Assembly (NCBI RefSeq): GCF_003315245.1
Contig: NZ_QNRT01000003.1
Location: 124,001 to 188,000 of the forward strand
Length of the DNA stretch: 64,000 bases
Direction: 5' to 3'
Origin: Arenicella xantha
GTDB lineage: Bacteria > Pseudomonadota > Gammaproteobacteria > Arenicellales > Arenicellaceae
The notes beneath the pieces were generated by a model, which was given only the letters and a program-made list of their open reading frames with translations, did no database searches and was not told where the DNA came from. Within the stretch, counting starts at the first letter, position 1; the number at the start of each line of letters is the position of its first letter. Position numbers and translations under genes: made by a program. Below are positions 7,195 to 25,511 of the stretch, piece by piece.

Positions 7195-8202
7195 TTAAAT
7201 GTGCTTACAGGAATCTCGTTCGACCAAAGTGCAAGGAACCATAATGCGCTGATTTGCGCTACCGGGATTTTCAAGTTGATGAATCAATAGTTTTGCCGAC
7301 TCATTTCCGATTTCATAGGGCTTCTGTTTAACCACAGTGATGGGGACTTTAAGTAAATCGGCCATGGGGAGTTCATCAAACCCTAATACTGAGACGTCAT
7401 CGGGTATGCATATATTGGCTTGGTTAAGCTCGGTAAGGAGCTGGCTGGTTATCGCCAAGTGTTGGGTAAACATCGCAGTCGGCGGGTTGTCCGCTGCCAG
7501 TAACTCGGCCGGTGCATTGTCAAAACCGCGATGCCGATGCCAATACTGAATAAGGCTAGAATCGAGCTCTAGCCCATGCGCGTTTAGTGCTGCAACATAT
7601 CCTTGGAAGCGCTCTTTTCGAGACTTAACCTTAGAAAATTCTTGCGTTAGAAAACAAATCCGCCGATGGCCTAGGCGAATTAAATACTCCGTTGCGTCGT
7701 ACGCGCCCTGCTTGTAATCCGACAGGATGATGTTGTTTGCATCGTCGTCTCGCTCCAGTTGAAATTGGACCACAGGACAACCTTTTTCAACAATTTCAGC
7801 AACTAAGAGACTGTTCATCCCGGATGGAACAATGATAATGCCATCGACACGCAACTGGGTTAACGAAGTAAGTGCGGTGGCCTCTGAGGCTGCATCGAAG
7901 TCGGTGTTATAGATAATCAGGTTGTAGCCATTTTTTTTACAATAATCGTCCATCCCCCGGATAGCGCGGCTGGTATAGGAGCCCGCAATGTCGCGTACTA
8001 TCACACCGATGATTCTTGTTTTATCTGTTTTAAGACTGCGCGCTATCGAGTTTGGCACGTAGTTAAGTTGGCTAATCGCCTGTTCGATGCGTGCCTTGGT
8101 GTCCTCTGACATGTAATTAAAGCGACCGTTTAAAAACTGTGAGACAGTGCTTTTTGACACGCCCGCTGCATGCGCAACATCGACTAGCTTTATTTTGTTC
8201 AC
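7195..8202 (-). CDS. LacI family regulator of the mannonate dehydratase operon
   Basis: A 335-residue LacI/GalR repressor. The N-terminal helix-turn-helix is clear (VDVAHAAGVSKSTVSQFLNG, residues 7-26), followed by the hinge helix (YVPNSIARSLK) and a periplasmic-binding-protein-like effector domain (GVIVRDIAG to the C-terminus). It is divergent from the manD operon, and the 117-base gap holds near-palindromic boxes at 8266-8300, so it most likely represses that operon and perhaps itself. The effector is probably a uronate-derived metabolite such as mannonate or KDG; this is inference from the neighbours. Confidence 0.92.
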   Translation of the reverse strand: MNKIKLVDVAHAAGVSKSTVSQFLNGRFNYMSEDTKARIEQAISQLNYVPNSIARSLKTDKTRIIGVIVRDIAGSYTSRAIRGMDDYCKKNGYNLIIYNTDFDAASEATALTSLTQLRVDGIIIVPSGMNSLLVAEIVEKGCPVVQFQLERDDDANNIILSDYKQGAYDATEYLIRLGHRRICFLTQEFSKVKSRKERFQGYVAALNAHGLELDSSLIQYWHRHRGFDNAPAELLAADNPPTAMFTQHLAITSQLLTELNQANICIPDDVSVLGFDELPMADLLKVPITVVKQKPYEIGNESAKLLIHQLENPGSANQRIMVPCTLVERDSCKHI

Positions 8203-8319: not shown

Positions 8320-9537
8320 GTGAAGATAGAAGACATAAAAGTGATTGTGTGTAGTCCCGGGCGAAACTTTGTCACGGTGAAGATTGTTGCTGACTCGGGC
8401 GTCATCGGAGTCGGCGACGCGACGGTAAATGGTCGTGAAATGGCCGTGGTAGCGTATCTTGAGGAGCATGTTATACCGTGTCTGGTCGGGCGAGACCCGC
8501 AGGATATTGAAGATATTTGGCAGTATCTCTACAAAGGAGCGTATTGGCGTAAGGGGCCGATTACGATGGCTGCTATTGCGGGTATTGATATGGCTTTGTG
8601 GGATATTAAAGGCAAGTTAGCTAATTTGCCGGTGTATCAGTTGCTTGGTGGCAGGAGTCGAGCAGGTGTTAACCTATATGCTCATGCTGGCGGTTCGGAC
8701 ATTGACGACACCATCGATAAAGCGCAAACATTAGTCGATCAGGGATTTAAAGCGGTTCGCTTACAGTCTGCCGTAGCCGGGCTTAAAACCACCTACGGTG
8801 TGGTTGGTGACAAGAAGGACTACTATGAGTTGCAGGGTAATAGGCCGCTGCCTCCAGAAGAGCAATGGTGCACGCAAAAATACTTCAGCATGATCGAGGC
8901 GCTGTTTAGCGAGGCTCGACGTCGATTAGGCAGTGGCGTGCACTTACTGCATGACGTTCATAGTCGCTTAACGCCGATAGAGTCGGCTAGGTTGGGCAAG
9001 ATGTTGGAGCCTTACCATCTGCTATTTTTAGAAGATGCATCGATTGCTGAAAACCAACAAAGCTATGAGCTGATTCGCCAGCATACAACCACACCGCTGG
9101 CCATTGGAGAAACGTATAACAGTATTTGGGACTGCAAGGATTTGATTCAAAGTCAGCTAGTCGACTATATACGTGCTGCGGCAACCCACGCCGGTGGTAT
9201 TACCGCCATGCGTAGAATTGCCGATTTCGCCGGCCTTTATAATGTACGAACAGCACCGCATGGTGCGCCAGATTTATCTCCTATTTGTTTTTCGGCACAT
9301 CTACACCTCAACACCTGGACTCCTAATTTTGGCATACAAGAATTCGTCGGTTTAGGAAATGAGCAAATCCGAAGCGTATTTCAGCAGGACGTTATGATTA
9401 AAGATGGTATGGCGGTTGTCAGCGAGAAACCGGGCTTAGGTGTCGATTTTAACGAACAGGCCGCTCAACAATACCCATACAAACGATCATATCTGCCTGT
9501 CAGTCGATTGGAAGATGGGACCGTTTGGAATTGGTAG
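8320..9537 (+). CDS. manD: D-mannonate dehydratase, enolase superfamily (RspA/ManD type)
   Basis: A 405-residue enolase-superfamily enzyme, the usual length of the ManD subgroup, which dehydrates D-mannonate to 2-keto-3-deoxygluconate (KDG). Residues expected in ManD are present: R147 and Y159, metal ligands D212, E238 and E264, H214 in HDVHSRLTP, and H314/D318 in HGAPDLSP. The start is GTG at 8320. It is the first gene of an operon with a Gfo/Idh/MocA oxidoreductase, a Na+/solute symporter and a secreted protein, under the divergent LacI regulator. Some ManD-group proteins act on gluconate or have very low activity, so the exact substrate is a probable rather than certain call. Confidence 0.87.
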   Translation: MKIEDIKVIVCSPGRNFVTVKIVADSGVIGVGDATVNGREMAVVAYLEEHVIPCLVGRDPQDIEDIWQYLYKGAYWRKGPITMAAIAGIDMALWDIKGKLANLPVYQLLGGRSRAGVNLYAHAGGSDIDDTIDKAQTLVDQGFKAVRLQSAVAGLKTTYGVVGDKKDYYELQGNRPLPPEEQWCTQKYFSMIEALFSEARRRLGSGVHLLHDVHSRLTPIESARLGKMLEPYHLLFLEDASIAENQQSYELIRQHTTTPLAIGETYNSIWDCKDLIQSQLVDYIRAAATHAGGITAMRRIADFAGLYNVRTAPHGAPDLSPICFSAHLHLNTWTPNFGIQEFVGLGNEQIRSVFQQDVMIKDGMAVVSEKPGLGVDFNEQAAQQYPYKRSYLPVSRLEDGTVWNW

Positions 9538-9612: not shown

Positions 9613-10770
9613 ATGAACGATAAACTGAAAGTTTTAATACACGGAACCGGCTTTGCAGGGCAAGGTCACGCTGAGGCATTTAGATACGCTGGTGTTGATG
9701 TTGTGGGCATGGTCGGTAGAACCGAAGCCGTAGTCAAACAAGTGACTGAAGAAATGGGTATTCCCTATGCTGGTACAGATTGGCAGCAAGCGTTAGCCGA
9801 CTGCAAACCAGACATCGTTTCGATTGCGACACCGGGCGGTGCGCATGTGGAGCCGATCAAGCTGGCGATCGCGGCCGGGTGTCACGTTTTTTGCGATAAA
9901 CCTCTCACCGAAAGTGGTGAGACGTCAAAACAGTTATACCAATTAGCGCTACAAAAAGGTGTAAAAACGGCATTTGCAGCCAGCTTTCGTTATATGCCGC
10001 ATGTGATGCATGCCAAACAATTGGTGTCTCAAGGCGCAATTGGCGAACCGTTAGAAGTTGAATGCATTTCGCATTTTAATCTTGAGCGTGATATTCCGTT
10101 TGGATGGTCGCATCGCAAAGAAAACGGTGGCGGGCGTTTGAATAACAATTTCACGCATATGTTGTCGATTGTGACATCGGTAGTGGGCGAAAAAATTCTG
10201 TCTATTATGGGAGAGGTGCGCGACGATCTCGGCAGAGCCCCAATCGTGGACGGTGTGCATAATTTTAAAACTCGGCGCGAACATATTCCTAAAGATTTGA
10301 ATGATCCGTCATTACAATGGGGCGAATCAAATGTGGAGTGGACCTACACCGTGCTGGCGCAGCTTGAGAGTGAGTATGCCAAGAATCCTGTTTCGGTGCT
10401 GTTCAAACATGGTGGTTTGAATCCCAGGTTTAACGAAGATCACATTGTGTTCTATGGGAGCACTGGCGCCATTTACATCAAAGGCCATTACGGTAGCGGA
10501 CCGCTGTATTTAAACCAGGTAGGCAACGACGGTAGTAATGCTGACTGGCGCGAGCTGACGTTGCCGGCCGAGATTGCAGCGGACGTGCCTGATGTTGATG
10601 GTGATACAGAGCGAAATTGGCGTTACTTGATTCGTGAGTTGGTTAAGGATATTAATGGTGAGCCGGTTGCGCATTATCAGTCTTTCAAAGAGGGCAGTCA
10701 GTACCAGCAGCTTATCGATATTATCCGCAAAAATAATAATTGGGTCGATGTGAGTCACCTTCAACAATGA
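9613..10770 (+). CDS. Gfo/Idh/MocA family NAD(P)-dependent sugar oxidoreductase
   Basis: A 385-residue cytosolic dehydrogenase. The N-terminal Rossmann fold shows GTGFAGQGHAEAF near residue 10, and the family EKP-type motif appears as CDKPL near residue 97. The C-terminal alpha/beta domain includes SHRKENGGGRLNNNFTHM, where the family usually places substrate contacts. It has no signal peptide. It lies 75 bases after manD and 21 bases before the symporter, so co-transcription is likely. It may oxidise or reduce the sugar acid that ends as mannonate, replacing a UxuB-type reductase, since no uxuB or uxaC is in the window. The substrate is not visible from sequence. Confidence 0.82.
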   Translation: MNDKLKVLIHGTGFAGQGHAEAFRYAGVDVVGMVGRTEAVVKQVTEEMGIPYAGTDWQQALADCKPDIVSIATPGGAHVEPIKLAIAAGCHVFCDKPLTESGETSKQLYQLALQKGVKTAFAASFRYMPHVMHAKQLVSQGAIGEPLEVECISHFNLERDIPFGWSHRKENGGGRLNNNFTHMLSIVTSVVGEKILSIMGEVRDDLGRAPIVDGVHNFKTRREHIPKDLNDPSLQWGESNVEWTYTVLAQLESEYAKNPVSVLFKHGGLNPRFNEDHIVFYGSTGAIYIKGHYGSGPLYLNQVGNDGSNADWRELTLPAEIAADVPDVDGDTERNWRYLIRELVKDINGEPVAHYQSFKEGSQYQQLIDIIRKNNNWVDVSHLQQ

Positions 10771-10791: not shown

Positions 10792-12546
10792 ATGGTCTAT
10801 GAGTATCTAGTTATTGGCGGGTACTTCTTGCTGGTGTTAAGTATTGGCTTCACGTTCAAGAAAATGGCCAAACAGTCGACTAGTGACTACTTTCGTGGCG
10901 GTGGTCGTATGTTGTGGTGGATGGTCGGTTCGACTGCCTTCATGATGCAGTTCTCGGCATGGACCTTCACCGGCGCAGCAGGCAAAGCATTCACAGATGG
11001 CTTCGCTGTTTGCTTGGTGTTTTTTGCCAATACCTTTGCCTATTTCTGCGGCTGGGCATATTTCGCGCATCGATTCCGCCAGATGCGCGTCGATACTCCA
11101 ACCGAAGCAATTAAGCGTCGTTTTGGTCATCAAAACGAGTTGTTTTTCTCATGGGCGTTAATAATTTTTAGTTTGATTAACGCTGGTATTTGGCTGAATG
11201 CGCTAGGAGTTTTTTCCAGCGCCGTATTTGAAGCTGATATTGGTATGACCATTATTGTTACTGGGCTAACAGTTGTATTTGTCTCGGTATTAGCTGGCGC
11301 GTGGGGCGTCGTTGCGTCGGACTTCGTTCAAACATTGGTGGTCGCCGTGGTGTCTGTGGCATGTGCGATTGTGGCATTGGTAAAGGTTGGTGGCCCGATC
11401 GAACTAGTCAGTAATTTTCCGTCAGGCTTTGTTATGGGGCCAGACATGAATTACGGCTTATTGTTAGTCGGCACTTTTGTGTTTTTTCTCGCCAAGCAGA
11501 TGATTACCATCATGAATCTGCATGACTCGTTCCGATTTTTGAATGCAAAAGATTCAATTAATGCTCGTAAAGCCTCGTTATTAGCAATGGGCTTGATGGG
11601 CGTAGGCAGCATTATTTGGTTTATCCCGCCATGGGCTTCGGCAATTTTGTACCCGGATGCCGCAGCGGCCTATCCTGAGCTTGGTAACAAGGCTGGTGAT
11701 GCGGTGTATTTGGTCTTCACTCGAAATGCAATGCCGGTCGGCACTGTTGGCTTGTTGTTGGCGGGCTTATTTGCCGCATCGATGTCGTCGATGGACTCTG
11801 CGCTAAACAAAAATGCCGGTATTTTCGTGCGCAGTGTGTACCAGCCTTACTTGGAAAAAAGGGGTAAACCGGCTGATGATAAAAAGCTACTCAACTTAAG
11901 TATGGTGCTGAGTTTTTTTAGTGGGATCATTGTTATTACGATGGCGTTATTCTTTAAGTCTTTAACCGAACTTAGTCTGTTTGACTTAATGATGTCGGTT
12001 TCGGCGATGATTCAGGTGCCGCTATTGATTCCATTAATAGTCGGGCTATTAATTAAAAAGACACCTTCGTGGGCGCCCTGGGTTACCGTTTTACTCGGCT
12101 TATTTGTTTCCTGGTTTATGTCGGCGGTACTCACACCGCACGTTGTTGCTGAATGGATTGGAATCGAGCCATTTACCAATCGGGAAGCCGGCGATATGAA
12201 CTTAATCATGACGTTGGCGGCCCATGTTTTTGTAACCGCTGGTTTCTTTTGTCTTACTTCGTTGTTCTATAAAGAAGATAGTGATGCGCACAAAGCGCAG
12301 CGGGAAGCGTTTTTTGTGGACTTTGAAACTCCAGTCGTCGCCGATGCCGCTCAAGGTGAGTACGATCGCCAGCAACACAACAAGCTTGGGACCATGGTGA
12401 TGATAATGGGCAGCGGTGTAGCCTTGATGTCGCTGATTCCGAACCCCTGGTGGGGCCGGTTGGTGTTTATTTGCTGCGCGCTGGTGATACTGAGCATCGG
12501 GGGGCTGTTAAAGCGGAGCGCACGACTCGATCGCTGCACGACCTGA
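10792..12546 (+). CDS. Sodium:solute symporter (SSS family)
   Basis: A 584-residue membrane carrier with about 13-15 hydrophobic segments. The SSS signature is visible in the N-terminal third (TSDYFRGGGRMLWWMVGSTA) and in the core helix around SMSSMDSALNKNAGIFVR. SSS carriers import sugars, sugar acids or amino acids with Na+. Within the manD operon it is the expected inner-membrane importer for the uronate or sugar acid handled by the two preceding enzymes. The start at 10792 follows 21 bases after the oxidoreductase stop. The C-terminal extension after residue ~490 includes a soluble stretch and two more helices. The substrate is inferred from context. Confidence 0.88.
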   Translation: MVYEYLVIGGYFLLVLSIGFTFKKMAKQSTSDYFRGGGRMLWWMVGSTAFMMQFSAWTFTGAAGKAFTDGFAVCLVFFANTFAYFCGWAYFAHRFRQMRVDTPTEAIKRRFGHQNELFFSWALIIFSLINAGIWLNALGVFSSAVFEADIGMTIIVTGLTVVFVSVLAGAWGVVASDFVQTLVVAVVSVACAIVALVKVGGPIELVSNFPSGFVMGPDMNYGLLLVGTFVFFLAKQMITIMNLHDSFRFLNAKDSINARKASLLAMGLMGVGSIIWFIPPWASAILYPDAAAAYPELGNKAGDAVYLVFTRNAMPVGTVGLLLAGLFAASMSSMDSALNKNAGIFVRSVYQPYLEKRGKPADDKKLLNLSMVLSFFSGIIVITMALFFKSLTELSLFDLMMSVSAMIQVPLLIPLIVGLLIKKTPSWAPWVTVLLGLFVSWFMSAVLTPHVVAEWIGIEPFTNREAGDMNLIMTLAAHVFVTAGFFCLTSLFYKEDSDAHKAQREAFFVDFETPVVADAAQGEYDRQQHNKLGTMVMIMGSGVALMSLIPNPWWGRLVFICCALVILSIGGLLKRSARLDRCTT

Positions 12547-12587: not shown

Positions 12588-13427
12588 ATGTTAAGAGCTA
12601 TTCCATTAAACGTATCTATTGTCATGTTACTAATCGTATTGCTGTTTGGCATAAGTTCGGTGCATGCGATTGGCGACGTGAAGCTAACACATGGCGTGGA
12701 TGAGTCTGCTGGTGGCGGGCTGTCTTATATTATTAGCTCGGCGTCGGCCACCTACTTTCTAGACAAAGAAGGCGGCGGGTTATCCAGTATGTTAGACAAA
12801 GACGGAGTCGACTGGTTAGGGTTTCATAATCAAAAAGGCTCAGGTTGGAAAGGTGAATACCGTGGCTTTCCAAACGCTGTACACAAGCAAGATGGTAATT
12901 TCTTTCATGCTATGAATGCAACAACAGAGCCATCCACCTCGGTGGTCAATGTAGCTTCTAGTGATCATGTTCAAATCGTGTTTACCTCCGCTAACGGTAA
13001 ATGGCAAGGACAGTGGGATTTCTATCCAGACCGTTGCGATTTCACTATGGTCAAGGTCAGTGACGGTTATAAGTACTGGGTGCTATACGAAGGAGTTCCG
13101 GGTGGCAGCATGGACGAGACTGACTTTTGGTATGCCTCGGTGAATGATCAGAAGCACTTAATCAATGAGTCGTTGCAGGGCGATTTCACCGGACCCGAGT
13201 GGATCGCATTCGGTGACGCTAAGTCTTCCCGTATGTTGTACGTTTTGAACCAGCAAGACGATGATGCGCCCGATGAATATGTCAGTCGACCGTACATGAC
13301 GGTATTAGGTTTTGGCCGTAGTAACAAAGATAAGTTTCTGACAGAACCGAAAACCTTCTCAATCGGCTTTGTCGAGTCCACTGAGTACTCTGATGTTAGG
13401 CGCGTCGTTACCGACCTCTTACAATAA
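12588..13427 (+). CDS. Secreted protein of unknown function in the manD operon
   Basis: A 279-residue protein with a clear Sec signal peptide (hydrophobic core about residues 9-24, cleavage expected after SSVHA near 29). I do not recognise its family. The mature part is rich in Gly, Asp, Trp and Tyr with many short beta-prone segments, for example WLGFHNQKGSGWKGEYRG, GKWQGQWDFYPDRCDF and YKYWVLYEGVPGG, as in secreted beta-sandwich carbohydrate-active or carbohydrate-binding proteins. It has no membrane anchor and no lipobox. It lies 41 bases after the symporter and is the last gene before the TonB-receptor promoter. Position suggests a periplasmic or exported enzyme acting on a uronate-containing glycan, but no catalytic motif proves this. 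Confidence 0.75.
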   Translation: MLRAIPLNVSIVMLLIVLLFGISSVHAIGDVKLTHGVDESAGGGLSYIISSASATYFLDKEGGGLSSMLDKDGVDWLGFHNQKGSGWKGEYRGFPNAVHKQDGNFFHAMNATTEPSTSVVNVASSDHVQIVFTSANGKWQGQWDFYPDRCDFTMVKVSDGYKYWVLYEGVPGGSMDETDFWYASVNDQKHLINESLQGDFTGPEWIAFGDAKSSRMLYVLNQQDDDAPDEYVSRPYMTVLGFGRSNKDKFLTEPKTFSIGFVESTEYSDVRRVVTDLLQ

Positions 13428-13741
13428 AAAATACCGCGCGCCGAATTCGAGGTGTTAACTGATGGGTAATATGCTTGCTGTCAGTTGGTTAACTTTTCGC
13501 TATTAGCAAACGTCTCAACGATATCCTCTAATTACCTTTAATCCGATGCCTTTGGTTTGGGCGCGTAGTAATTACGATTGCTGTCAGAGTTTTGCAGCCA
13601 GATTTTTCAGAGCCTTGTAAAACAATTTAACTTGCAGATATTCGATCAGGTATTACCAATTATCGTTGTTACTAGTTCTAGTGCAGCGCATAAAACCTTA
13701 TGCTGCGGCCTTTTTGGGCGTAAATAGTCTGTTTTTATGAA

Positions 13742-13820
13742 TTGGTCTTACCAAAAATACTTTTATTGTGTTGCCAAAAGTATTGCAATTGGTTGACAAG
13801 TTTGTAAATATTGGTAAACA
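13742..13820 (+). promoter_or_regulatory. FadR-type operator and promoter of the alginate TonB receptor
   Basis: TTGGTCTTACCAA (13742-13754) is a perfect 5-3-5 inverted repeat of the form used by FadR-subfamily GntR regulators. Further down, TTGACA (13793-13798) and TAAACA (13815-13820) with a 16-base spacer form a sigma-70 promoter, so the transcript would begin near 13827. This rules out the in-frame TTG at 13811 as the receptor start. The rest of the 13428-13870 gap shows no gene. Confidence 0.65.
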
Positions 13821-13870
13821 TCAAAGTTGATGGTGAAGTAACGACTAAACAAACCTATGAGAAAAATAAA

Positions 13871-16858
13871 ATGAAAAAAGTTGAGAGGAGCGAGGACGCA
13901 TTGTTGCGCCGACTAAGATACCGCAAGCTTGTGTTGGCTTGTTTGGCTACAACCACACTCGGTGTCACCGGCGCCGGACAGGCACAAACGGCATCGCCAA
14001 GTGCTAATACAGGCCCGCTAGAAGAAGTTGTTGTTACCGGTATACGACGATCTCTCGAGACTGCACTCGCAGAAAAGCGGGCCTCAGACAATCTGGTGGA
14101 AGTGATTATTGCTGAAGATATCGGCAAATTACCTGATCAAAACCTTGCCGAAGTTCTTGAGAACGTAACTGGGATTCAGATTACTCGAGAGGCCGGGGTT
14201 GGTACAGGCGTACAAATCCGCGGTACCAATGCAAATCGTACCGAGATCAATGGTGTGTCTACTGTTGGCTCTGGTTCTGGACGTAGTGGCATCAACTTTG
14301 AAGATGTTTCAGCGGGTATTATTGCTGCCGTAGAAGTAACTAAAGCGCCTGAGGCGAAAACGGTTGAAGGCTCTGTCGGTGGTACTATCAATTTAAGGAC
14401 TATACGTCCGCTTGACCTTAAGGAGCGTGTCGCATCAGTTCGCGTTCAAGGTGAAAACAGCAGTTTGTCGACAGATAGTAGTTTTACTCCTAGGTTGTCG
14501 GGAACTTATGGCGATAACTGGACCACTGATAGCGGCGATTTCGGCGTGGTGATAAGTGCGAGTTACGCCGAACAAGACGTTACCGCTTTTCGTCCTCGCG
14601 TCGACCGCGACAACTTTGTTGGCTCAGACAGTGGTGTCGCCAGTGCTCAAAGTTTCGACTTTTTACCAATTCAGTTTTTCGTTCAAGACTACGATAACTA
14701 TGAGTATGAGACGTCCAACCTTGCTGGTTCACTAGAGTGGGCGCCGAATGATAGCGTGAAATTCTATTTTGATGCGATCATCAATGATCAAGAGCGCAGG
14801 CAAGAAAGCTCAAGGGTGCAAGCCTCGGGCGTGTCTGATCTCAGAAATACAGCGATACCTACTGAATTTGAAACGGTCAACTTCGGTTCGCTCGATGGTT
14901 CTAACGGTGTGCAAAACCTTGGCTCTATTCAAGCGGCCGTTCGAGGCCTGATCCCAGTTGAGGAAGGCGATGCCGATCCAAACCTGCGCTTCAATACCGA
15001 TACAAATTCACGTTTGACCGACAGCGAAATATTTAGTTTAGGTGCCGAGTGGAATCGCGGAGCATTGTCAGGACGAGTTGAAGTGTCATCGTCAAGCTCT
15101 GATTCTAGTACTCCAAGCTTCAATACCACGCTTAACTTTATCAACCCAAATGTTGCGACTAACTCATCAAATGAGAACGGCACGCCATTTATCTATGATA
15201 TTACGGGCGGTTCTCTTGCCTTTGGTGTTGCGCAAAGTGAGGCTAATGGGCCATCGACTGCACAATTGCTCGATGCTGCTAACTACATGCTGCGTGATGT
15301 GCAGCAGTCACAAAGCCGTGCTGAAAACAGTGAAGATGCCTTTGTCGCTGATTTCACTTATGACTTAGACTGGTCAGCAATTACCTCTGTTGATTTTGGT
15401 TTTCGTCGCAACGAAACGTCGAGCTTGAGAGATGAAATTACTTCGAGTGTTGGCTTGCGAAGTTTTGACGAGAGCCCAACGGGTAACCTGTTTGCGAACG
15501 TGCTTACAGTAGGTCCGGATAATTTTAATGAGGCTGATGGCCGAACGCTTTATGTTCGTGATTTCCTAACGGTTGATCCAGAGCTAGTTGCTTCTTCTCC
15601 AGAAGCGGTATTAGACGCATTGAATGCGGCGATTGTTGCAAATAACGCTATCACCGGTTCTGATCGTGAGCCAATTAGTTCGCCAACATCAAGTACTAGC
15701 GCGTTCTTTGATATTTCAGAAGAAACCAATGCCTTGTATGCGCAAGCGAATTTTGAGGCCGGTATTTTCCGCGGTAATTTTGGCTTACGCTATTTAGAGA
15801 CCGACGTAACTTCACGAGCTAATTCTGAAGTTAACGGTGTAGTAACCCCGACTACGTCAACTAGTAGTTATGACTTCATGTTGCCGCGTATCAATTTGGC
15901 GGCAAGCGTAACAGATGATGTGGTTCTTCGCGCTGGTTGGGGAAAGGACATCAGGCGTCCAAACTTTGATGATCTGTCATCAGCCTATACGTTTAGCACT
16001 AGTCCGAATCCGGCTGTTGATTTAGGTAATCCTGGTTTAGAACCTGAAGAGGTTACGTCATTCGATCTTTCTGCTGAGTGGTATTTTGCACCGTCTAGTG
16101 TTGTAAGTATCGGTTACTTCAATAAGAAGCGTACCGGCCTATTTGCGCGCAATGATGAAAGCCCGTTCGAAGATCCGGTGACTGGTTTCCGCGACATTAC
16201 CGACCCTTGTGAGGCAGGCGGTATCTTTAATCCGATTGCTGATATCAATGTGTTTGGTCCTGTTGGCGTGGGGGTTTGTGTTCCTTCATCGCAGACCATC
16301 AACGGCGCTGGTGAAACCACGCAAGAAGGATTTGAACTTGCGTTTCAGTACGATCTTTCAGAATTTGAAGATCAGCTAGGCTGGGCGTCAGGCTTCGGAG
16401 TTATTGCTAACTATACTAAGCAAGAGTTCAGTGGTGGTGATTCATTCCTTGACCCTACAAGCCGTGCAGCCACTGTTTTTGAGTCCAACGGAGTTGTAGA
16501 TGCTAACTTGCGTGCGCAATTGTTAGACCTATCAGAAAATTCATACAACATCACAGTGTTCTATGAGAAGCATGGTCTTTCTGCTCGTATGCGTTATACA
16601 TGGCGTGAAGCGTATCGTTCTGATGATTTTGGTAGCACCAGTAGTTACCCTTGGGGTTTCCCAGTGGTTCAAGAAGATCGCGGACAGCTCAATGCGAGCA
16701 TTAGCTATGATGTAAGCGATAATTTGAATATCGGAATTGAGGCCGTGAACCTTACTGAAGAAGAAGTCCAACAGTCTTGTGTTAACGAGGGGGCGCTATT
16801 GTGCTTTCAAGGTCTTACTGATCGTCGTATCACCGTTGGGGCTAGCTATCGCTTCTAG
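13871..16858 (+). CDS. TonB-dependent receptor of the alginate locus
   Basis: A 995-residue outer-membrane receptor counted from ATG 13871. It has a signal peptide (hydrophobic run LVLACLATTTLGVTG ending near GQAQ), a TonB-box-like EEVVVTG, a plug domain (DIGKLPDQNLAEVLENVTGI, IRGTNANRTEINGV, GSVGGTINLRTIRPLDL) and a 22-strand-type barrel ending in VGASYRF with the C-terminal Phe needed for outer-membrane assembly. This is the large proteobacterial receptor class used for oligosaccharides. Its position before the GntR gene and the PL6/PL17 lyases, with shared operator-like boxes, suggests alginate oligosaccharides. A strong hairpin follows at 16914. Confidence 0.93.
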   Translation: MKKVERSEDALLRRLRYRKLVLACLATTTLGVTGAGQAQTASPSANTGPLEEVVVTGIRRSLETALAEKRASDNLVEVIIAEDIGKLPDQNLAEVLENVTGIQITREAGVGTGVQIRGTNANRTEINGVSTVGSGSGRSGINFEDVSAGIIAAVEVTKAPEAKTVEGSVGGTINLRTIRPLDLKERVASVRVQGENSSLSTDSSFTPRLSGTYGDNWTTDSGDFGVVISASYAEQDVTAFRPRVDRDNFVGSDSGVASAQSFDFLPIQFFVQDYDNYEYETSNLAGSLEWAPNDSVKFYFDAIINDQERRQESSRVQASGVSDLRNTAIPTEFETVNFGSLDGSNGVQNLGSIQAAVRGLIPVEEGDADPNLRFNTDTNSRLTDSEIFSLGAEWNRGALSGRVEVSSSSSDSSTPSFNTTLNFINPNVATNSSNENGTPFIYDITGGSLAFGVAQSEANGPSTAQLLDAANYMLRDVQQSQSRAENSEDAFVADFTYDLDWSAITSVDFGFRRNETSSLRDEITSSVGLRSFDESPTGNLFANVLTVGPDNFNEADGRTLYVRDFLTVDPELVASSPEAVLDALNAAIVANNAITGSDREPISSPTSSTSAFFDISEETNALYAQANFEAGIFRGNFGLRYLETDVTSRANSEVNGVVTPTTSTSSYDFMLPRINLAASVTDDVVLRAGWGKDIRRPNFDDLSSAYTFSTSPNPAVDLGNPGLEPEEVTSFDLSAEWYFAPSSVVSIGYFNKKRTGLFARNDESPFEDPVTGFRDITDPCEAGGIFNPIADINVFGPVGVGVCVPSSQTINGAGETTQEGFELAFQYDLSEFEDQLGWASGFGVIANYTKQEFSGGDSFLDPTSRAATVFESNGVVDANLRAQLLDLSENSYNITVFYEKHGLSARMRYTWREAYRSDDFGSTSSYPWGFPVVQEDRGQLNASISYDVSDNLNIGIEAVNLTEEEVQQSCVNEGALLCFQGLTDRRITVGASYRF

Positions 16859-16913
16859 CGGAGCGTGAAGGTCCAGTAAAGAGATGTTGTCGATGATGGC
16901 ATCTCTGAGCGTC

Positions 16914-16943
16914 AACAAACCCCAGTTTATGCTGGGGTTTGTT
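16914..16943 (+). terminator. Strong hairpin after the TonB receptor
   Basis: A perfect 12-base stem (AACAAACCCCAG with CTGGGGTTTGTT) encloses a six-base loop, 55 bases after the receptor stop. A clear U-tract is lacking, so it may act with Rho or stabilise the 3' end. Confidence 0.65.
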
Positions 16944-17136
16944 GTGTCTGCCGCGGCCGTGACTACCTTGATGGTATGAGTGGTGTCTTGATGTTGATGC
17001 ACAGGCAAGCTCAGCCAGCAGGCTGCTTTGGCTGTGTTAATGTCTAGTTAAGTGTGGAGTTAAAGAAAGAATGCCTTGCTCAGCGCGCTATTAGTCCGTT
17101 TCATTAGCGCCTCTTTAAGGCTTGAGGAATGCTCAC

Positions 17137-17898
17137 TCACTTTGATTGGGTTGACAGTTCGCTAACTGAAAAGCGTTTTCGCATTTGTGACACTTTAAGC
17201 TTTGCGGCTTCCACTGCCTGTGATTCAGACACGTCATGCATGGCTTCGAGTAGGTCTGAGAAATGGCCTCGCATCGCAATGCGGGCCGCGTTGGTATCTC
17301 CAGCTGCGATCGCGTCGTAGATAGCAACATGGTCAGCGATTCTGGTGCTACGATCTTCGTCAGCGCAGACTGCGTGATGTGCGGTACTGATGTGGTTTAG
17401 ATTTTCTTGGATGTTCCAAAGGAAATCGATTTGTTTTGCAATTACGCGATTGTGGGTTGCCTGGGCAATGATTGAATGGAACTGTCGATCCGCGCCGGAT
17501 GAGGACACGTCCTTAATGTCTTCGGACTTGATTTTTTCCAGCGCTTTTTCTAATTCAATTAGCTCTTCTTGCTTGATCATTCGTGCGGCTAGCGCGGCAG
17601 CTTCACCTTCAAGTAAGACCCGTGCTTCGAGTAATTCAAAGGCACTAATTTCCCGACTGAAGTCATCGTTTATTAGGTTGTTGCCGAGCACATAAACGCC
17701 GGAACCAGCTTTGACTGACACTTCTTCTTTTGCTTCTAGGGCAATAATTGCTTCACGCACGGTCGGTCGGCTAACACCAAAGCGTTCGGCAAGTTCACGT
17801 TCGGTGGGAAGTCGACTGCCCACAGGGAAATCGCCCGCCTTTATAAGGGCTGAGATTTCATTAAAAACGGTGACGTATAACCTTTCTTTGTTTGACAT
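17137..17898 (-). CDS. GntR family (FadR subfamily) regulator of the alginate locus
   Basis: A 253-residue regulator counted from ATG 17898, which has an AGGGAG ribosome-binding site directly before it; an in-frame start at 17937 would lack one. The N-terminal winged helix is typical GntR (GSRLPTERELAERFGVSRPTVREAI, about residues 27-51), and the all-helical C-terminal FCD domain follows (FELLEARVLLEGEAAALAARM onward, with metal-binding-type histidines in RQFHSIIAQATHN). Such proteins commonly repress uronate genes and respond to KDG-like or uronate ligands. It is divergent from the PL6-PL17 operon, and FadR-type boxes lie in the shared gap and before the TonB receptor. Confidence 0.92.
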   Translation of the reverse strand: MSNKERLYVTVFNEISALIKAGDFPVGSRLPTERELAERFGVSRPTVREAIIALEAKEEVSVKAGSGVYVLGNNLINDDFSREISAFELLEARVLLEGEAAALAARMIKQEELIELEKALEKIKSEDIKDVSSSGADRQFHSIIAQATHNRVIAKQIDFLWNIQENLNHISTAHHAVCADEDRSTRIADHVAIYDAIAAGDTNAARIAMRGHFSDLLEAMHDVSESQAVEAAKLKVSQMRKRFSVSELSTQSK

Positions 17899-17953
17899 TG
17901 TGCTCCCTAACCATAATCCAGTGACCCTGCCGGCCAATCTTAGACCGAAATAA

Positions 17954-18229
17954 TTTGTATTACAATTTTAATCGATGATTGCTGGTTGGGGCACGTGAGT
18001 GCAGCAGCTGATGCGCTTGAAGCCGCTTAGCTATGCCTCACAATACATTGGATTGTTGCCAATATTCCTTATTGCTTTACTTTGATTCGCGCTGTTTCGA
18101 GGTAGCCCAAGATTAAGTCAAAAAAGCAGACAAATATTTTGGTAATACAATTATGCCAGATAATGAGGGCGTTATTTTGCATATTGGTAATACATAGTGG
18201 TTGACATTGGGGTTGGTATTTGTTTGAAT
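17954..18229. promoter_or_regulatory. Divergent GntR/PL6 control region with three operator-like boxes
   Basis: TTTGTATTACAAT (17954-17966) contains a perfect TTGTA-T-TACAA palindrome, 56 bases before the GntR start. TTGGTAATACAAT (18139-18151) and TTGGTAATACATA (18184-18196) are degenerate copies of the perfect 13-base box before the TonB receptor and lie 45 bases apart. A promoter TTGACA (18201-18206) with TTGAAT (18224-18229) and a 17-base spacer sits directly after the last box and would drive the PL6 operon. No gene is seen in this gap. Confidence 0.6.
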
Positions 18230-18304
18230 TCAGTGGCCTATTGATGTCGTTGGGCTGCTACTTATTAATTTCAAGCGCTGTGATCAACCGGAGATACACT
18301 CTAA

Positions 18305-20623
18305 ATGAAGTCAATGCCCACTAGTAAAGCCGTCGTTTCGCGGTTCCGTCTAATTGCGAGTTTGATAGGTAGTGGTCTTGCCGTGCAATGTTACCAAACC
18401 GCTTACGCTGAAGACTTTCTTGTCAAAACTCAAGCGCAATACCTTGAGGTGAGCGATTCACTAAAGCCGGGCGATAAAGTGCTTCTAGCTAATGGGGTTT
18501 GGAATGACTTTGAAATATTGTTTCACGGCAAAGGTACAGAGGAACAACCTATCTCGCTGGTAGCTCAAGAAAAAGGTAAGGTGTTTATTGCGGGTCAGTC
18601 GAACCTACGCCTGCATGGAGAACACTTATTTGTATCAGGTTTGGTATTCAAAAACGGGTACACGCCAACCAGTGCGGTCATTTCATTTCGTAGCGACAAA
18701 GATAATTTTGCTAATAATTCGCGTGTAAGTGAAATCGTTATCGATAACTTTAATAATCCTGAGCGGTTTGATGGCGACTATTGGGTAGCCATGTATGGAA
18801 AGAACAATCGGTTTGACCACAATCACCTAGAAGGTAAGCGAAATCAGGGTGTCACCATGGCTGTGCGCCTCGACAGCGAAGAGAGTCGTGAGAATAATCA
18901 TCGGATCGACCACAATTATTTCGGGCCGCGTCCGATCTTGGGCTCCAATGGTGGTGAAAGTCTACGCATCGGAACCAGTCATCATTCTTTAACTAATTCA
19001 CGCACCGTCGTCGAGAATAATTATTTCGACCGTTGTGACGGCGAACTTGAAATTATTTCTAATAAGGCCGGCAGCAATGTGATTCGTGGCAATGTGTTTT
19101 TTGAGTCACGCGGCACCTTAACGCTGCGTCATGGCAACGACACGTTAGTCGAAAATAATGTGTTTTTTGGGAATGGCGTAGACCACACTGGTGGTATTCG
19201 TGTAATCAATAAACGTCAGACCATTCGCAACAACTACATGGAAGGTTTGGCTGGTTATCGTTTTGGCGGTGCCTTGGTTGTGATGAACGGCGTGCCAAAT
19301 TCTTCTATCAATCGCTACCACCAGGTTGAAGATTCACTGATCACTAATAATTCATTGATCAATTCCAGTCATATCCAACTGGCGGCCGGTAGCGATCAAG
19401 AGCGATCAGCCGTTCCGATACGAACAGAGTTTAGTAATAACCTAATCTTTAATGACGATAGCAAAGACGTCTTTACCGTTTACGATGACATCGCCGGAAT
19501 CACTTTTTCTAATAATCTGGCAAGTGGCGTTGAGGAGCCTAAGATTAGTAAAGGTTTTTCGAATGCCGTGTTAACGGTGACTCGAGCTGATAATGGTTTA
19601 GTTTACCCTGTCACTGATGGCGCTGATGATGTTGGTGTATCACGTGATTTGATGCCGATCAAAAAGCAACAGACGGGTGTTTCGTGGTATCCGAAGCCAG
19701 AGAAAGACGCTGTTTTCGGTGGTGGGTCAACGGTAGAGGTTAAACCTGGCCAAGGTGCTTTAGGCGAGGCTATTCGATCAGCCAAGGCTGGCGACATCAT
19801 TAATTTATCAGCCGGTGAATATATTGAGCCAAAGCTAATCGTGATTGATAAGCCGTTGCTTATTCGAGGTGCTGACTATGGCTCTAAAGCGTACCGGGAA
19901 GGTTCAGTTAAGCTCTATTTTGAGAAGACCGCCTTATTTGAATTGCAAGACGGCGGCAGTCTGTCGTTACAGGGATTGACGATATCTGGTGCATTGTCTC
20001 CAGATAGTGCCGGGAACTCGGTGATCAGAACTCAGCGACGGTCGATGCTAAGCAACTATCAGCTTTTAGTAGAGCAAGTCCGAGTGAGTGATCTGGATGT
20101 GAATCATTCATTCAATTTTTTGACTCCGTCGAAGGCGAGCTTTGCTGATCGAATTGAGATCATTGATTCGTCGTTTAGCAATGTAACCGGTGCAATTTTG
20201 GCGCTCGATAAAGAAACCGATGACTACGGCATCTACAACGCAGAGTATGTAACGATTAGTGGTTCTTCCTTCGATAATGTCGAAGGTGATCTGGTCGATT
20301 TTTATCGCGGAGGAACCGACGAGAGTACGTTTGGTCCGCACTTCGATCTATCCAATTCAAGTCTTAATAATGTTGGTGCAGGAAAGCGTAATAAATCCAA
20401 AAGTTCAATTTTGTTACACGGCGTTCAAGTTTCGAATGTGCATGATAATAAAATTGTTGGTAGTCCTAACATTACGGTGAAGCATACGGTCGGCGAGCCG
20501 GTAACGAAAATCGTTAATAACCGATTTATCGATACTCCAGAAATTACTGTAACTGAGCTCAATAGCGATAAGAAAAATACCGCGATTATCTCTGACAATA
20601 GCTATACCACGGAGCAAAAGTAA
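18305..20623 (+). CDS. Two-domain PL6 alginate lyase
   Basis: A 772-residue secreted lyase with an N-terminal signal sequence (hydrophobic run about residues 16-34, cleavage near AYAED). The first ~400 residues form a right-handed parallel beta-helix of polysaccharide lyase family 6: NGGESLRIGTS, ELEIISNKAGSN and RGTLTLRHGN. The catalytic base and acid are K254 and R275, 21 residues apart, as in chondroitinase B and AlyGC. A second beta-helix domain starts near residue 470 (GSTVEVKPGQGALGEAI). Two-domain PL6 enzymes of this size include exolytic, guluronate-preferring alginate lyases; exo action here is inference. It is first in the operon, with PL17 starting three bases after its stop. Confidence 0.93.
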   Translation: MKSMPTSKAVVSRFRLIASLIGSGLAVQCYQTAYAEDFLVKTQAQYLEVSDSLKPGDKVLLANGVWNDFEILFHGKGTEEQPISLVAQEKGKVFIAGQSNLRLHGEHLFVSGLVFKNGYTPTSAVISFRSDKDNFANNSRVSEIVIDNFNNPERFDGDYWVAMYGKNNRFDHNHLEGKRNQGVTMAVRLDSEESRENNHRIDHNYFGPRPILGSNGGESLRIGTSHHSLTNSRTVVENNYFDRCDGELEIISNKAGSNVIRGNVFFESRGTLTLRHGNDTLVENNVFFGNGVDHTGGIRVINKRQTIRNNYMEGLAGYRFGGALVVMNGVPNSSINRYHQVEDSLITNNSLINSSHIQLAAGSDQERSAVPIRTEFSNNLIFNDDSKDVFTVYDDIAGITFSNNLASGVEEPKISKGFSNAVLTVTRADNGLVYPVTDGADDVGVSRDLMPIKKQQTGVSWYPKPEKDAVFGGGSTVEVKPGQGALGEAIRSAKAGDIINLSAGEYIEPKLIVIDKPLLIRGADYGSKAYREGSVKLYFEKTALFELQDGGSLSLQGLTISGALSPDSAGNSVIRTQRRSMLSNYQLLVEQVRVSDLDVNHSFNFLTPSKASFADRIEIIDSSFSNVTGAILALDKETDDYGIYNAEYVTISGSSFDNVEGDLVDFYRGGTDESTFGPHFDLSNSSLNNVGAGKRNKSKSSILLHGVQVSNVHDNKIVGSPNITVKHTVGEPVTKIVNNRFIDTPEITVTELNSDKKNTAIISDNSYTTEQK

Positions 20624-20626
20624 ACC

Positions 20627-22873
20627 ATGACGCATCTCACTTCACAGGCGGGTCTACATTCTTTATTGAAAACGGTTACCTGCAGTTTGCTGGTGTTAAT
20701 TGGCGCGTCGGCTCTGCAAGTTGCTTATGCGCAAAACGTGGCACATCCAAACCTCACCGTTACTCAGGCAGATATCGAGGCAATTAGAACTCAGCTCTCT
20801 GAAGTTCCGGGTGCCCAAGCGGCACTCACTAGCTTAAGAAAAAAAATTGATGCGGTGATTGCACTGCCGATGGATGTCCCTGTCCCGCAAGATGCTGGCG
20901 GCGGCTATACTCATGAGCAGCATAAGCGGAACTATCAGGCGATGTATGAAGCCGGATTACTATTCCAAGTGACGCAAGACACAACCTACCTAAATTTTGT
21001 TCGCAAGATGTTGTTGGCTTATGCTGACTTGTATCCAACTCTGGGGATACATCCAAAGCCAAAAGAGCAGACGCCGGGAAAATTATTTTGGCAAAGTCTG
21101 AATGAGGCAATGTGGCTGGTTTACACAATTCAAGCTTACGATTCAGTCGCTTCGCAGTTGAGTGCAGAAGATCGTACGTTGATAGAGACTAATCTATTGC
21201 GTCCGGCAGCAAGCTATTTGTCGGCTGGGCAACCTCAAACGTTTAATAAAATTCATAACCATGGTACTTGGGCGGCGGCTGCGGTGGGAATGACTGGTTA
21301 TGTATTGAACGATCAGACGTTAGTTAAACAAGCATTATACGGTCTCGATATGTCGGGCGACGCTGGCTTTCTCCAGCAGATCACGCAGCTGTTTTCACCG
21401 GACGGCTACTACGCCGAAGGGCCGTATTATCAGCGCTTCGCATTGATGCCATTCGTGCTATTTGCCAAAGCAATTGATGTGAATCAGCCCGAGTTGAAAA
21501 TATTTGAATATCAAGACCAAGCGTTGTTGAAGGCGGTTCGTACCTCGATTCAGCTAAGTTACAACAAACTGTTCTTTGGTATCAATGATGCAATTAAAGA
21601 TAAGGGCATTGATACGATCGAGTTAGTTCACGGCATTGCGATTGCTTATGACATAACCAGCGACCCGGCATTGCTTGCGATTGCGCAGCGACAAAATAAT
21701 ATCTTGTTGACTGGTTACGGCTTTCGAGTCGCTCAAGGGTTAGATCAAGGTCTTGCGCAACCGTTTCAATATCAGTCCATGCAGCTTCGAGACGGACAGG
21801 CCGGAGATCAAGGAGCGTTGGCAATCTTTCGCAACGGTATCGACCATGGGCATCAAGCCTTGGTTATGAAGAATACCTCGCAGGGCTTAGGTCACGGTCA
21901 TTTCGATAAGCTTCACTGGCTGTATTTTGACAATGGCAATGAGATCGTTAGCGATTATGGTGCGGCAAGATTTCTTAATATAGAAGCAAAGTATGGTGGC
22001 CACTATTTGCCTGAGAACAATACATGGGCAAAACAAACGGTTGCGCATAACACCGTGGTGGTTGATGAGCAAAGTCACTTTGACGGCGACTGGCAAGTTG
22101 GTCAGAAGTCGGCTCCAGAGGTTCGTTTTTTTGCGGTAAGCGACGATATTCAAATAACCTCGGCGTCAATAGCGCAAGCATATCCTGGAACGAACTTGAC
22201 CCGCACGATGGCGATGGTTAAGTCCGCCAGCTTAGAGCATCCGTTGATCGTGGATATCTTTAAAGTGACAAGCAAGTCTAAGCATCAATACGACCTGCCG
22301 CTACACTTTCAAGGGCAATTAATTTCGCACACTATTTCAGCAACAGCGCATACCAGCAAGCTGGAACCACTGGGCAAAAATAATGGCTATCAGTATCTTT
22401 GGGCGCGCGCGCAAGGTCCTATTAAACCCGGAATGTCGCAAGTTACTTGGCTTAATGAAAACCGTTTTTATACTTACAGTGTACTGGGCGGTGACGACCA
22501 GCAAATGATTTTCACTCAACTGGGAGCCAATGATCCTAATTTCAACCTTCGATCAGAGAGCGCGTTAATACGACGGGTGAAGTCAGCCAAACAGCATACC
22601 TATGTCTCAGTGTTGGAGACGCATGGAGAATATAACGGCACCTCAGAATACACCAAAAATGCGCGAAGTAGCGTGGTCGAGCTAGTCGCTAGTTCAGCTG
22701 CTGGTGTTGATGAAAATATTGACGTGGTCACCGTCACGCTGGTCAGTGGCGAATCATTCAGCTTAGCGGTTGCCGAAGACAGCAGTTCGACAGCTGAGCA
22801 CACACTTGAGCTTAATGGCAAAACGTTTGTGTGGACTGGACCGTATTCGTTGCTAACAAACACTAAAAACTAA
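20627..22873 (+). CDS. PL17 oligoalginate lyase (heparinase II/III fold)
   Basis: A 748-residue lyase with a signal sequence (about residues 13-35, ending VAYAQ). An N-terminal alpha/alpha toroid carries the catalytic region: N211-H212 in NKIHNHGTW and Y268 in EGPYYQRFA, matching the Asn-His and Tyr of the PL17 enzyme Alg17c with a constant offset of ten. The C-terminal beta-sandwich of the heparinase II/III type contains LGHGHFDKLHW and HNTVVVDEQSHFDGDW. PL17 enzymes degrade alginate oligomers exolytically to the unsaturated monouronate that opens to DEH. The ATG lies three bases after the PL6 stop, so the two are translationally coupled. The location is probably periplasmic or outer-membrane. 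Confidence 0.94.
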   Translation: MTHLTSQAGLHSLLKTVTCSLLVLIGASALQVAYAQNVAHPNLTVTQADIEAIRTQLSEVPGAQAALTSLRKKIDAVIALPMDVPVPQDAGGGYTHEQHKRNYQAMYEAGLLFQVTQDTTYLNFVRKMLLAYADLYPTLGIHPKPKEQTPGKLFWQSLNEAMWLVYTIQAYDSVASQLSAEDRTLIETNLLRPAASYLSAGQPQTFNKIHNHGTWAAAAVGMTGYVLNDQTLVKQALYGLDMSGDAGFLQQITQLFSPDGYYAEGPYYQRFALMPFVLFAKAIDVNQPELKIFEYQDQALLKAVRTSIQLSYNKLFFGINDAIKDKGIDTIELVHGIAIAYDITSDPALLAIAQRQNNILLTGYGFRVAQGLDQGLAQPFQYQSMQLRDGQAGDQGALAIFRNGIDHGHQALVMKNTSQGLGHGHFDKLHWLYFDNGNEIVSDYGAARFLNIEAKYGGHYLPENNTWAKQTVAHNTVVVDEQSHFDGDWQVGQKSAPEVRFFAVSDDIQITSASIAQAYPGTNLTRTMAMVKSASLEHPLIVDIFKVTSKSKHQYDLPLHFQGQLISHTISATAHTSKLEPLGKNNGYQYLWARAQGPIKPGMSQVTWLNENRFYTYSVLGGDDQQMIFTQLGANDPNFNLRSESALIRRVKSAKQHTYVSVLETHGEYNGTSEYTKNARSSVVELVASSAAGVDENIDVVTVTLVSGESFSLAVAEDSSSTAEHTLELNGKTFVWTGPYSLLTNTKN

Positions 22874-22885
22874 GCGAAGAGAATA

Positions 22886-23236
22886 ATGATGAAAAACCAA
22901 AGTCCCCGTTTTGTGCTTGGCGCATCAGAGCCAATTGAGCAGGTTGCCGACGGCATCAAACGCCAGTTTTTGGGTTACGGTCCCGAACTAATGGCAGTCA
23001 AAGTTTGGTTTGAAGAAGGCGCTATTGGGTACGTTCACGATCATCCGCATACGCAGGTTAGCTATGTTGAGAGCGGAGAATTTGAGGCGACTATTGACGG
23101 GAAGACGCAACTATTAAAGGCCGGTGACTCGTTTTATGTTGCCCCTAACAAAAGCCACGGTGCGGTATGTAAGAAAGCTGGAGTGTTAATCGACATTTTC
23201 AGCCCATTGCGCGAAGACTTTTTATCAGAGCCATAG
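22886..23236 (+). CDS. kdgF: Cupin, KdgF-type uronate ketonisation enzyme
   Basis: A 116-residue single-domain cupin. The metal-binding set is H51, H53, Q57 and H91 (HDHPHTQVSYVESGEFEATI, then NKSHGAV), as expected for KdgF, which converts 4,5-unsaturated monouronates from lyases to the linear ketone form. It has no signal peptide, so it should act in the cytoplasm. It lies 12 bases after PL17 with GAAGAG before the tandem ATGATG start; the second ATG is equally possible. The lyase context supports the role. Confidence 0.88.
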   Translation: MMKNQSPRFVLGASEPIEQVADGIKRQFLGYGPELMAVKVWFEEGAIGYVHDHPHTQVSYVESGEFEATIDGKTQLLKAGDSFYVAPNKSHGAVCKKAGVLIDIFSPLREDFLSEP

Positions 23237-23282
23237 TCACCGCGATTATATAAAAAACTAAATAGAACAATAAAAGGAGACG

Positions 23283-24581: not shown

Positions 24582-24745
24582 TGACAACAAATTTATTCAT
24601 GTTGAATGACTGCGGGTTTCGCCGAAAAAGCAGTGCAGGAGGCGACACACACATACAGTTAGTAGAGTTTAGACAGTCCGCGTAATTTGGGCTTAACATA
24701 ATTTTTAGATATAGGGCTTAGGCTCAAATAAAGTTAGGAAATAGT

Positions 24746-25495
24746 ATGAAATTTGAAAATAAAGTCGCCATCGTAAGTGGTGGTACACGAGACATCGGTA
24801 AGGCTGTTGTTTTAAAACTAGCGGCTGAAGGTGCCAAAGTGGTTATTAATTATTTTAATAACGATGAGAACGCTAAAGCCACGCAAGCCGAAGTTAAGGC
24901 TCTCGGTGCCGAGTCGATCTTGGTTCGAGGTGACATGGCTAATAAGGCAGATGTTGAATCTTTAGTTGCTCAAGCTAAGGAAGCATTTGGTGGCGTGGAT
25001 ATTTTGGTGAATGTCGCTGGCGGAATGGTTGCTCGAAAAACTATTACGGAAATGGACGAAGATTTCTTCAACCACGTTATGCGTCTTAATCTAAACAGCA
25101 CTTTCTTGCTAACCAAATACTGTGTGCCGCATATGAAAAAAGGCAGCGCAATTGTGAATCTTGCGTCGCTAGCGGGTCGTGATGGTGGTGGTCCTGGTGC
25201 GTCGGCTTATGCAACGTCGAAAGCAGCGGTTATGACTTTTACTCGTTCTATGGCCAAAGAGTTGGGCCCTCAAGGAATTCGCGTAAACGCTTTGTGTCCG
25301 GGTGTCATTAGTACCACTTTTCACGACACATTTAGTAAAGATGAAGTACGTAAAAATATCGCTAATGCTACGCCTTTACGTCGCGAAGGTAGTTCTCAAG
25401 AAATCGCCGATGCGGTTAGTTATTTAGTTAGCGAAGATGCCTCATTTATCACCGGTGCAAACCTTGATATTAACGGCGGCCTGTTCTTCTCGTAG
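24746..25495 (+). CDS. SDR family DEH reductase
   Basis: A 249-residue classical short-chain dehydrogenase. The cofactor loop is SGGTRDIGKA (11-20), the active site is S141, Y155 and K159 (YATSK), and the C-terminal part has CPGVISTTFHDTF. In alginate loci such an SDR reduces DEH (4-deoxy-L-erythro-5-hexoseulose uronate) to KDG; that role is inferred from its place between the uronate carrier and the KDG kinase. TTAGGAA precedes the ATG. The 164-base gap before it could hold its own promoter. No signal peptide. Confidence 0.87.
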   Translation: MKFENKVAIVSGGTRDIGKAVVLKLAAEGAKVVINYFNNDENAKATQAEVKALGAESILVRGDMANKADVESLVAQAKEAFGGVDILVNVAGGMVARKTITEMDEDFFNHVMRLNLNSTFLLTKYCVPHMKKGSAIVNLASLAGRDGGGPGASAYATSKAAVMTFTRSMAKELGPQGIRVNALCPGVISTTFHDTFSKDEVRKNIANATPLRREGSSQEIADAVSYLVSEDASFITGANLDINGGLFFS

Positions 25496-25511
25496 TATTA
25501 TTTTGCTTGGT

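Follow-up and report, generated by a model that had tools for sequence, protein, structure and literature searches.

The window analyzed here, a 64-kb stretch of Arenicella xantha DNA, carries at positions 12588–13427 of the forward strand a gene of 279 codons that begins with an ATG start codon and encodes a protein that we refer to as X279. Because only ~0.002 open reading frames (ORFs) of this length are expected by chance in 64 kb and six frames under a simple base-composition model, and because relatives at 58–69% identity are encoded at 23 loci elsewhere, this ORF is a real gene. An earlier note on this DNA had described a 279-residue ORF with a signal peptide, and our reading of the ORF agrees. 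The N-terminus reads MLRAIPLNVS, IVMLLIVLLFGIS and SVHA, followed by IG, which by eye places the end of the signal peptide after residue 27 (residues 1–27; 12588–12668, forward strand), with no lipoprotein cysteine. The mature part of 252 amino acids contains 10.7% G, 6.0% F, 4.8% Y and 2.8% W, in keeping with the Trp/Tyr/Gly-rich composition noted earlier.

Three genes upstream of X279 on the same strand encode a mannonate dehydratase, an oxidoreductase and a Na+ symporter, as the earlier note had read them. The D-mannonate dehydratase (ManD; 8320–9537) scores 668 bits against the curated equivalog model NF043051, above its cut-off of 550, and residues R147, Y159, D212, H214, E238, E264 and H314, to which we presume catalytic roles belong, were found in it by motif. 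The Gfo/Idh/MocA oxidoreductase (9613–10770; PF01408, E 2.4e-21), a candidate D-mannuronate reductase, has as its nearest solved sequences NAD-binding oxidoreductases and a scyllo-inositol/L-glucose dehydrogenase (E 1e-23 to 1e-22). The third gene encodes an SSS-family Na+ symporter (10792–12546; PF00474, E 7.8e-28), whose closest solved sequence is 5nv9 (E 5.3e-23), which we take to be the sialic acid symporter SiaT. Only 41 bp separate the symporter stop codon from the X279 start codon; "operon" is used here as inferred from gene spacing and common strand. A LacI-family regulator (7195–8202, reverse strand; PF00356 and PF13377) lies divergently ahead of ManD, and a LacI1-like gene adjoins the module in many of the close loci described below.

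Directly downstream of X279, an alginate locus spans 13811–26499, with all of its genes on the forward strand. It comprises a TonB-dependent receptor (13811–16858, assigned by eye), a PL6-type lyase (18305–20623; PF14592, E 2e-115), a PL17-type oligoalginate lyase (20627–22873; PF07940 and PF05426), a KdgF-like cupin of 116 amino acids (22886–23236, by eye), and an MFS transporter, a DehR-like SDR and a KdgK-like sugar kinase (23283–26499, by eye). The PL17-type enzyme scores 904 bits against NF042990, and since no match in this study attains the 1400-bit equivalog cut-off of that model, "PL17-type" is a family-level statement only. The window thus holds a set like that of known alginate utilization loci (PL6, PL17, KdgF, DehR, KdgK). 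The earlier note had supposed that X279 might define the glycan target of its operon; this was not borne out, since the PL6 and PL17 enzymes of the same window already do that.

X279 belongs to a family without matches in the searched databases

Searches of Pfam, NCBIfam and PDB sequences with X279 returned nothing significant, in line with the earlier observation that no family could be named for it, and neither did searches of Pfam and PDB sequences with 26 of its relatives. The best matches, all insignificant, were MDD_C (E 0.19), FeaR (E 0.12), DUF2380 (E 0.013, in 3 of 26 members) and two PDB chains (E 0.83 and 1.3); the relative at locus L001 has a weak match to a beta-propeller lectin (E 0.0082) that falls far under the cut-off of that model. 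The aldose 1-epimerase model PF01263 matched none of 26 members, and the alginate lyase models PF05426, PF08787 and PF14592 gave no match up to E 1 with X279 and 25 relatives. Kinship to aldose epimerases was also sought by profile-profile comparison and rejected: from 25 ORFs of nine genomes with PF01263 genes, 22 were compared with hhalign (L067 and L075, plainly other genes, and the frameshifted L058 were left out), and the best probability was 6.4%. A tblastn search of a plasmid collection, with X279 and with the domain of a distant relative fused to a PL10 lyase, found no match.

A scan of genome contigs located the 23 close loci in Gammaproteobacteria, Bacteroidota and Verrucomicrobiota, the hosts being Alteromonadales, Cellvibrionales-type Gammaproteobacteria, Flavobacteriaceae, a Saprospiraceae MAG and an Opitutales MAG; two further loci lie in the window's own genus. 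By eye, the signal sequence of 24 of 26 members ends in a cysteine, and a strict pattern finds 19 of 26; most members are therefore lipoproteins, the exceptions by eye being the window's copy and that of L026. In a quick tree of 46 members, about half of whose inner branches are weak, the close group forms one clade (SH-aLRT 98). Seven Bacteroidota rows fall together (SH-aLRT 95) inside a looser group (85) with two gammaproteobacterial rows, a placement that suggests that the family has passed between phyla.

The X279 gene travels with a uronate module

To describe the gene neighborhood, we considered 26 close loci, namely the window, the 23 loci and the two same-genus loci, the last two read with longer flanks. 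The Gfo/Idh gene is present in 24 of these loci, the symporter in 24 and ManD in 22, and the symporter immediately precedes X279 on the same strand in 19 of the 26. Receptors related to the TonB-dependent receptor of the window also occur near the module in several loci. Two genes, the Gfo/Idh gene at L019:3214–4354 and the symporter gene at L017:6030–7807, are each split over two overlapping ORFs, through sequencing error or decay. At the usual position of ManD, locus L115 of genome G226 carries D-2-hydroxyacid dehydrogenase-like and RraA-family genes (13245–15103, reverse strand). Replacement of a non-adjacent ManD by another dehydratase was entertained for these genes and discarded, as a true ManD lies elsewhere in the genome, ~10 kb off and beside a PL17-type gene.

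Co-occurrence was followed, as plain counts, in 38 hand-chosen genomes, 19 with and 19 without X279. The positives were G000, G001, G008, G226 and G1196, together with the genomes that carry 14 of the 23 loci (9 loci were left out); the negatives were G002–G007, G009–G020 and G204. An ortholog of the Gfo/Idh enzyme (73–82% identity) was found in 18 of the 19 genomes with X279, that of G342 being split over two frames, and in none of the 19 without. ManD scores above the curated cut-off in 18 of the 19 X279 genomes. The Opitutales MAG G343 carries X279 without the Gfo/Idh gene, a ManD above the cut-off or a PL17-type lyase. In G338, X279 lies on a separate contig and the partner genes are retained in a run of MFS, SDR, KdgK, PL17, TonB receptor, ManD, Gfo/Idh, symporter and one further gene.

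A PL17-type lyase is encoded in 16 of the 19 X279 genomes, the exceptions being G008 (78% complete), G342 and G343; across the window's class it was found in 5 of 274 genomes. Two of these five (G000 and G226) have X279, and the other three (G006, G015 and G204) lack both X279 and the Gfo/Idh gene. Therefore, X279 tracks the module rather than alginate lyases generally, and alginate use does not need the module. Five Bacteroidota loci (L016, L019, L021, L023 and L106) have the module beside PL6, PL7-type or PL17-type genes, and in L118 it sits inside an alginate cluster; no such lyase genes were seen in the stretches read of L004 and L009. Together, these results show that the module of ManD, Gfo/Idh enzyme, SSS symporter and X279, which lies in or near alginate utilization loci in several genomes, is alginate-linked. 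The carbohydrate setting and the uronate operon of the earlier note thus stand, refined to alginate and to a widespread family that follows its operon partners. Although Pfam, NCBIfam and PDB sequences, as searched, contain nothing that matches the X279 family, its members regularly accompany the same defined uronate enzymes in bacteria that also encode alginate lyases. As a set, ManD, Gfo/Idh, SSS and X279 are not mentioned in the portions of PMC8286568 and PMC13274419 that were available, and no title in the open-access literature searched names such a module.

X279 is predicted to adopt a galactose-mutarotase-like fold

AlphaFold models were obtained for X279 (26 alignment rows; pLDDT 77.4, pTM 0.77) and for its Opitutales relative (24 rows; pLDDT 75.8, pTM 0.79). 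Both are beta-sandwiches, consistent with the beta-rich character proposed earlier, and both match galactose-mutarotase-like structures best. The fold comparison from a predicted structure that the earlier note had called for thus leads to 3mwx and 1jov: VIA-align of the X279 model with 3mwx gave Z 18.2 at 2.7 Å over 205 residues, and of the second model Z 14.7 at 3.5 Å over 207 residues, and Foldseek matched 1jov with E 5.8e-7 and 6.4e-5 for the two models (TM 0.49 by query length). PL26, rhamnogalacturonan lyase, GH174 and GH38 domains and YidC come next, no more than a few Z units lower; the rows for PL26, rhamnogalacturonan lyase (1nkg) and GH174 have Z 13–16, with their sequences compared via Pfam only. 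With these proteins so close behind, the match indicates fold and not function. X279 is thus probably a galactose-mutarotase-like beta-sandwich, as judged from the models. The earlier note had named placement in a known non-carbohydrate family as an outcome that would count against it; no such placement emerged, though the fold includes the non-enzymatic periplasmic domain of YidC.

All 28 close and 18 distant rows keep D70, D75, W76, R92, G93, P95, N96, H107, E168, G173, M237, G243 and R244 unchanged, and D229 is kept in all rows but one distant row. The stretch that holds the superfamily-wide polar residues R92, N96, H107, E168, D229 and R244 corresponds to 12861–13319 on the forward strand. 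As this invariant set is kept in settings with different sugars, its conservation suggests a site for catalysis or for very specific binding, with the invariant H107 and E168 as candidates for a catalytic His and Glu. The region of R92, N96 and H107 has low confidence in both models, the H107 loop having low pLDDT.

In comparison with the aldose 1-epimerases and galactose-mutarotase-like proteins (3mwx, 4bze, 1jov; PF01263), residues 28–279 of X279 are predicted in two models to form a similar beta-sandwich, and the conserved Arg and His of X279 precede a conserved acid in what we take to be the order of aldose 1-epimerases. X279 differs from these enzymes in being exported, in lacking a Pfam match and profile-profile similarity, and in that E263, which by our reading occupies the place of their catalytic Glu on the last strand, is not invariant. 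The present evidence neither confirms nor refutes the new lyase, epimerase or binding protein that the earlier note had suggested.

Distant relatives occur in varied domain settings

Profile searches detected the wider superfamily in 2 of the 345 genomes sampled across Bacteroidota (a count that includes the close-group genome G340), in 10 of 299 genomes of one family (including G340, G345 and G1196 of the close group), and in 5 of 337 genomes of the phylum of G343 (including G343, itself of the close group). One distant relative is the N-terminal domain of a PL10 pectate lyase, whose lyase part matches Pfam with E 1.8e-99 and which a GH28 gene adjoins. This fusion is encoded in a Bacteroidota genome (L107:8806–11616, reverse strand), with the same gene in L043 and L050, and a second X279-like gene lies beside it in L107 (6983–8803). 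In other distant relatives the X279-like domain lies at the C-terminus of a protein of ~1070 residues that by eye has FG-GAP-like repeats, and some relatives carry fn3 or T9SS parts. Proteins of this FG-GAP-like architecture (~960–1090 residues), with the C-terminal X279-like domain, are encoded at L101:5445–8708, L103:5177–8398, L104:8060–11263 and L102:10230–13118, and in L101, L103 and L104 the neighboring gene also encodes an FG-GAP protein.

Three verrucomicrobial relatives (L110:974–1816, L112:4938–6011 and L113:594–1340) stand alone and have no clear signal peptide, their start codons being uncertain. Each precedes a gene for a DAO-type FAD oxidoreductase, after which two of the three loci have a nucleotidyltransferase or a C-methyltransferase gene. 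In these three proteins, the X279-like domain may have a biosynthetic role.

A possible role for X279 in a proposed side branch of alginate catabolism

The evidence supports well that X279 is exported, probably of mutarotase fold, and a member of the alginate-linked uronate module; it probably acts on a sugar acid, perhaps mannuronate, ahead of uptake into the cell. For its precise role we favor, tentatively, a side branch of alginate catabolism in which X279 would be a mutarotase-like extracytoplasmic sugar-acid protein. X279 would meet its substrate outside the inner membrane and act on the anomeric center of the uronate, with a putative site built of R92, N96, H107, E168, D229 and R244. The symporter would then import saturated D-mannuronate, and the Gfo/Idh enzyme would reduce it at C1 to D-mannonate, the product expected because of the two-fold axis of the mannitol skeleton. 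ManD converts D-mannonate to KDG, so that in the proposed branch its product would enter the route through KdgK and KDPG aldolase, whose genes the window also carries. We infer the substrate and activity of X279 and the location of its site, as well as the Gfo/Idh reaction, for which gene context makes this enzyme the natural candidate D-mannuronate reductase, an activity that we take to be EC 1.1.1.131. Open-access literature searches found nothing on "mannuronate reductase", and their matches to EC 1.1.1.131 were unrelated by title.

The mutarotase-like reading is our first choice because X279 has this predicted fold, is linked to a symporter whose nearest solved sequence transports an acidic sugar, and has relatives in biosynthesis-like gene settings; the stand-alone verrucomicrobial relatives beside FAD-oxidoreductase and sugar-nucleotide-type genes fit better with a sugar-modifying than with a polymer-cleaving enzyme. 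NanM, a periplasmic sialic acid mutarotase, is a beta-propeller, and X279 differs from it in its predicted beta-sandwich; as an exported mutarotase for an acidic sugar, X279 would nonetheless work in a similar way, with an importer and a Gfo/Idh enzyme alongside it; NanM and the Gfo/Idh enzyme YjhC belong to one metabolism (PMC7315737). Several points weigh against this explanation: X279 has no sequence kinship to aldose epimerases, its conserved-loop residues R92, N96 and H107 sit in a model region of low confidence, it is not obvious why the PL10-fused and long extracellular relatives would need a mutarotase, X279 occurs in G343 without the partner set, and three PL17-positive genomes lack X279. 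Uronates, moreover, change anomer unaided, which counts against the need for a mutarotase. The mannuronate branch itself is weakest in its supply, as lyases yield saturated mannuronate from the original chain ends only.

A glycan-releasing exo-hydrolase or lyase that frees monomer for the symporter would ease this problem, since the saturated D-mannuronate of the module would come from a hydrolase acting on chains that end in mannuronate, and we regard such a role for X279 as unlikely but deserving of serious weight. Catalytic or core domains of PL26, rhamnogalacturonan lyase and GH174 fucanase are among the fold matches as well, one distant relative is fused to a PL10 lyase with a GH28 gene adjoining, and glycan-cleaving enzymes are often lipoproteins at the surface or in the periplasm. 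However, proteins with many different, unrelated functions share this fold, X279 has no sequence match among the known lyase and hydrolase families, and signal-less stand-alone relatives in biosynthesis-like loci would be odd for a polymer cleaver. No paper on the catalytic residues of GH174 was found in the open-access literature searched, and a search there for "alginate hydrolase" returned, by title, only work on seaweed extracts. In its boldest form, X279 would be the exo-beta-D-mannuronidase of a new glycoside hydrolase family that takes saturated mannuronate off alginate chains or oligomers and, with the SSS symporter, the Gfo/Idh mannuronate reductase and ManD, constitutes a lyase-independent hydrolytic branch exchanged as a unit by marine bacteria of more than one phylum; we consider this form improbable.

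Ranking just behind a glycan-releasing enzyme, and likewise unlikely but a serious rival, is a non-catalytic protein that binds uronates or oligouronates, either to pass them to the symporter or to dock substrate on the cell surface. The lipoprotein nature of most members, the tight link to the symporter, the same fold in the non-enzymatic YidC periplasmic domain and the fusions of relatives to a lyase and to long extracellular proteins are all in its favor, and we also count for it the description of ToaA as an SSF-family oligoalginate symporter in PMC13274419. Against a binding protein, the invariant R, N, H, E and R across sugar settings exceed what binding modules usually keep, and no SSS symporter is known to depend on a binding protein. 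We consider improbable a further reading, in which the common glucuronate/galacturonate route has the module as its lower half, the Gfo/Idh enzyme acts as a fructuronate reductase, and the alginate lyases accompany the module only because the hosts share a habitat. Mannonate does usually come from glucuronate, via UxaC and UxuB; UxaC is encoded in 11 of the 19 X279 genomes, the window's included, and a gene beside X279 in L003 is fructuronate-reductase-like. UxaC was, however, not found in the other 8 of the 19 (G226, 99% complete, two below 90% and five of unlisted quality), and because the glucuronate route to mannonate needs UxaC, these genomes count for the mannuronate branch. The PL17-type lyases of the X279 genomes and the position of the L118 module within an alginate cluster likewise speak against the glucuronate/galacturonate route.

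If the mannuronate branch exists, the module provides a candidate gene for D-mannuronate reductase and accounts for the fate of saturated mannuronate, which the lyase-centered pathway omits. Farther along the window, at 38431–60040, genes assigned by eye include a second TonB receptor, a tryptophan-halogenase-like gene, two GH13-like genes, an MFS transporter, a LacI regulator and an Entner-Doudoroff set; this region looks like a separate starch/maltose locus together with the lower route that KDPG would also enter.
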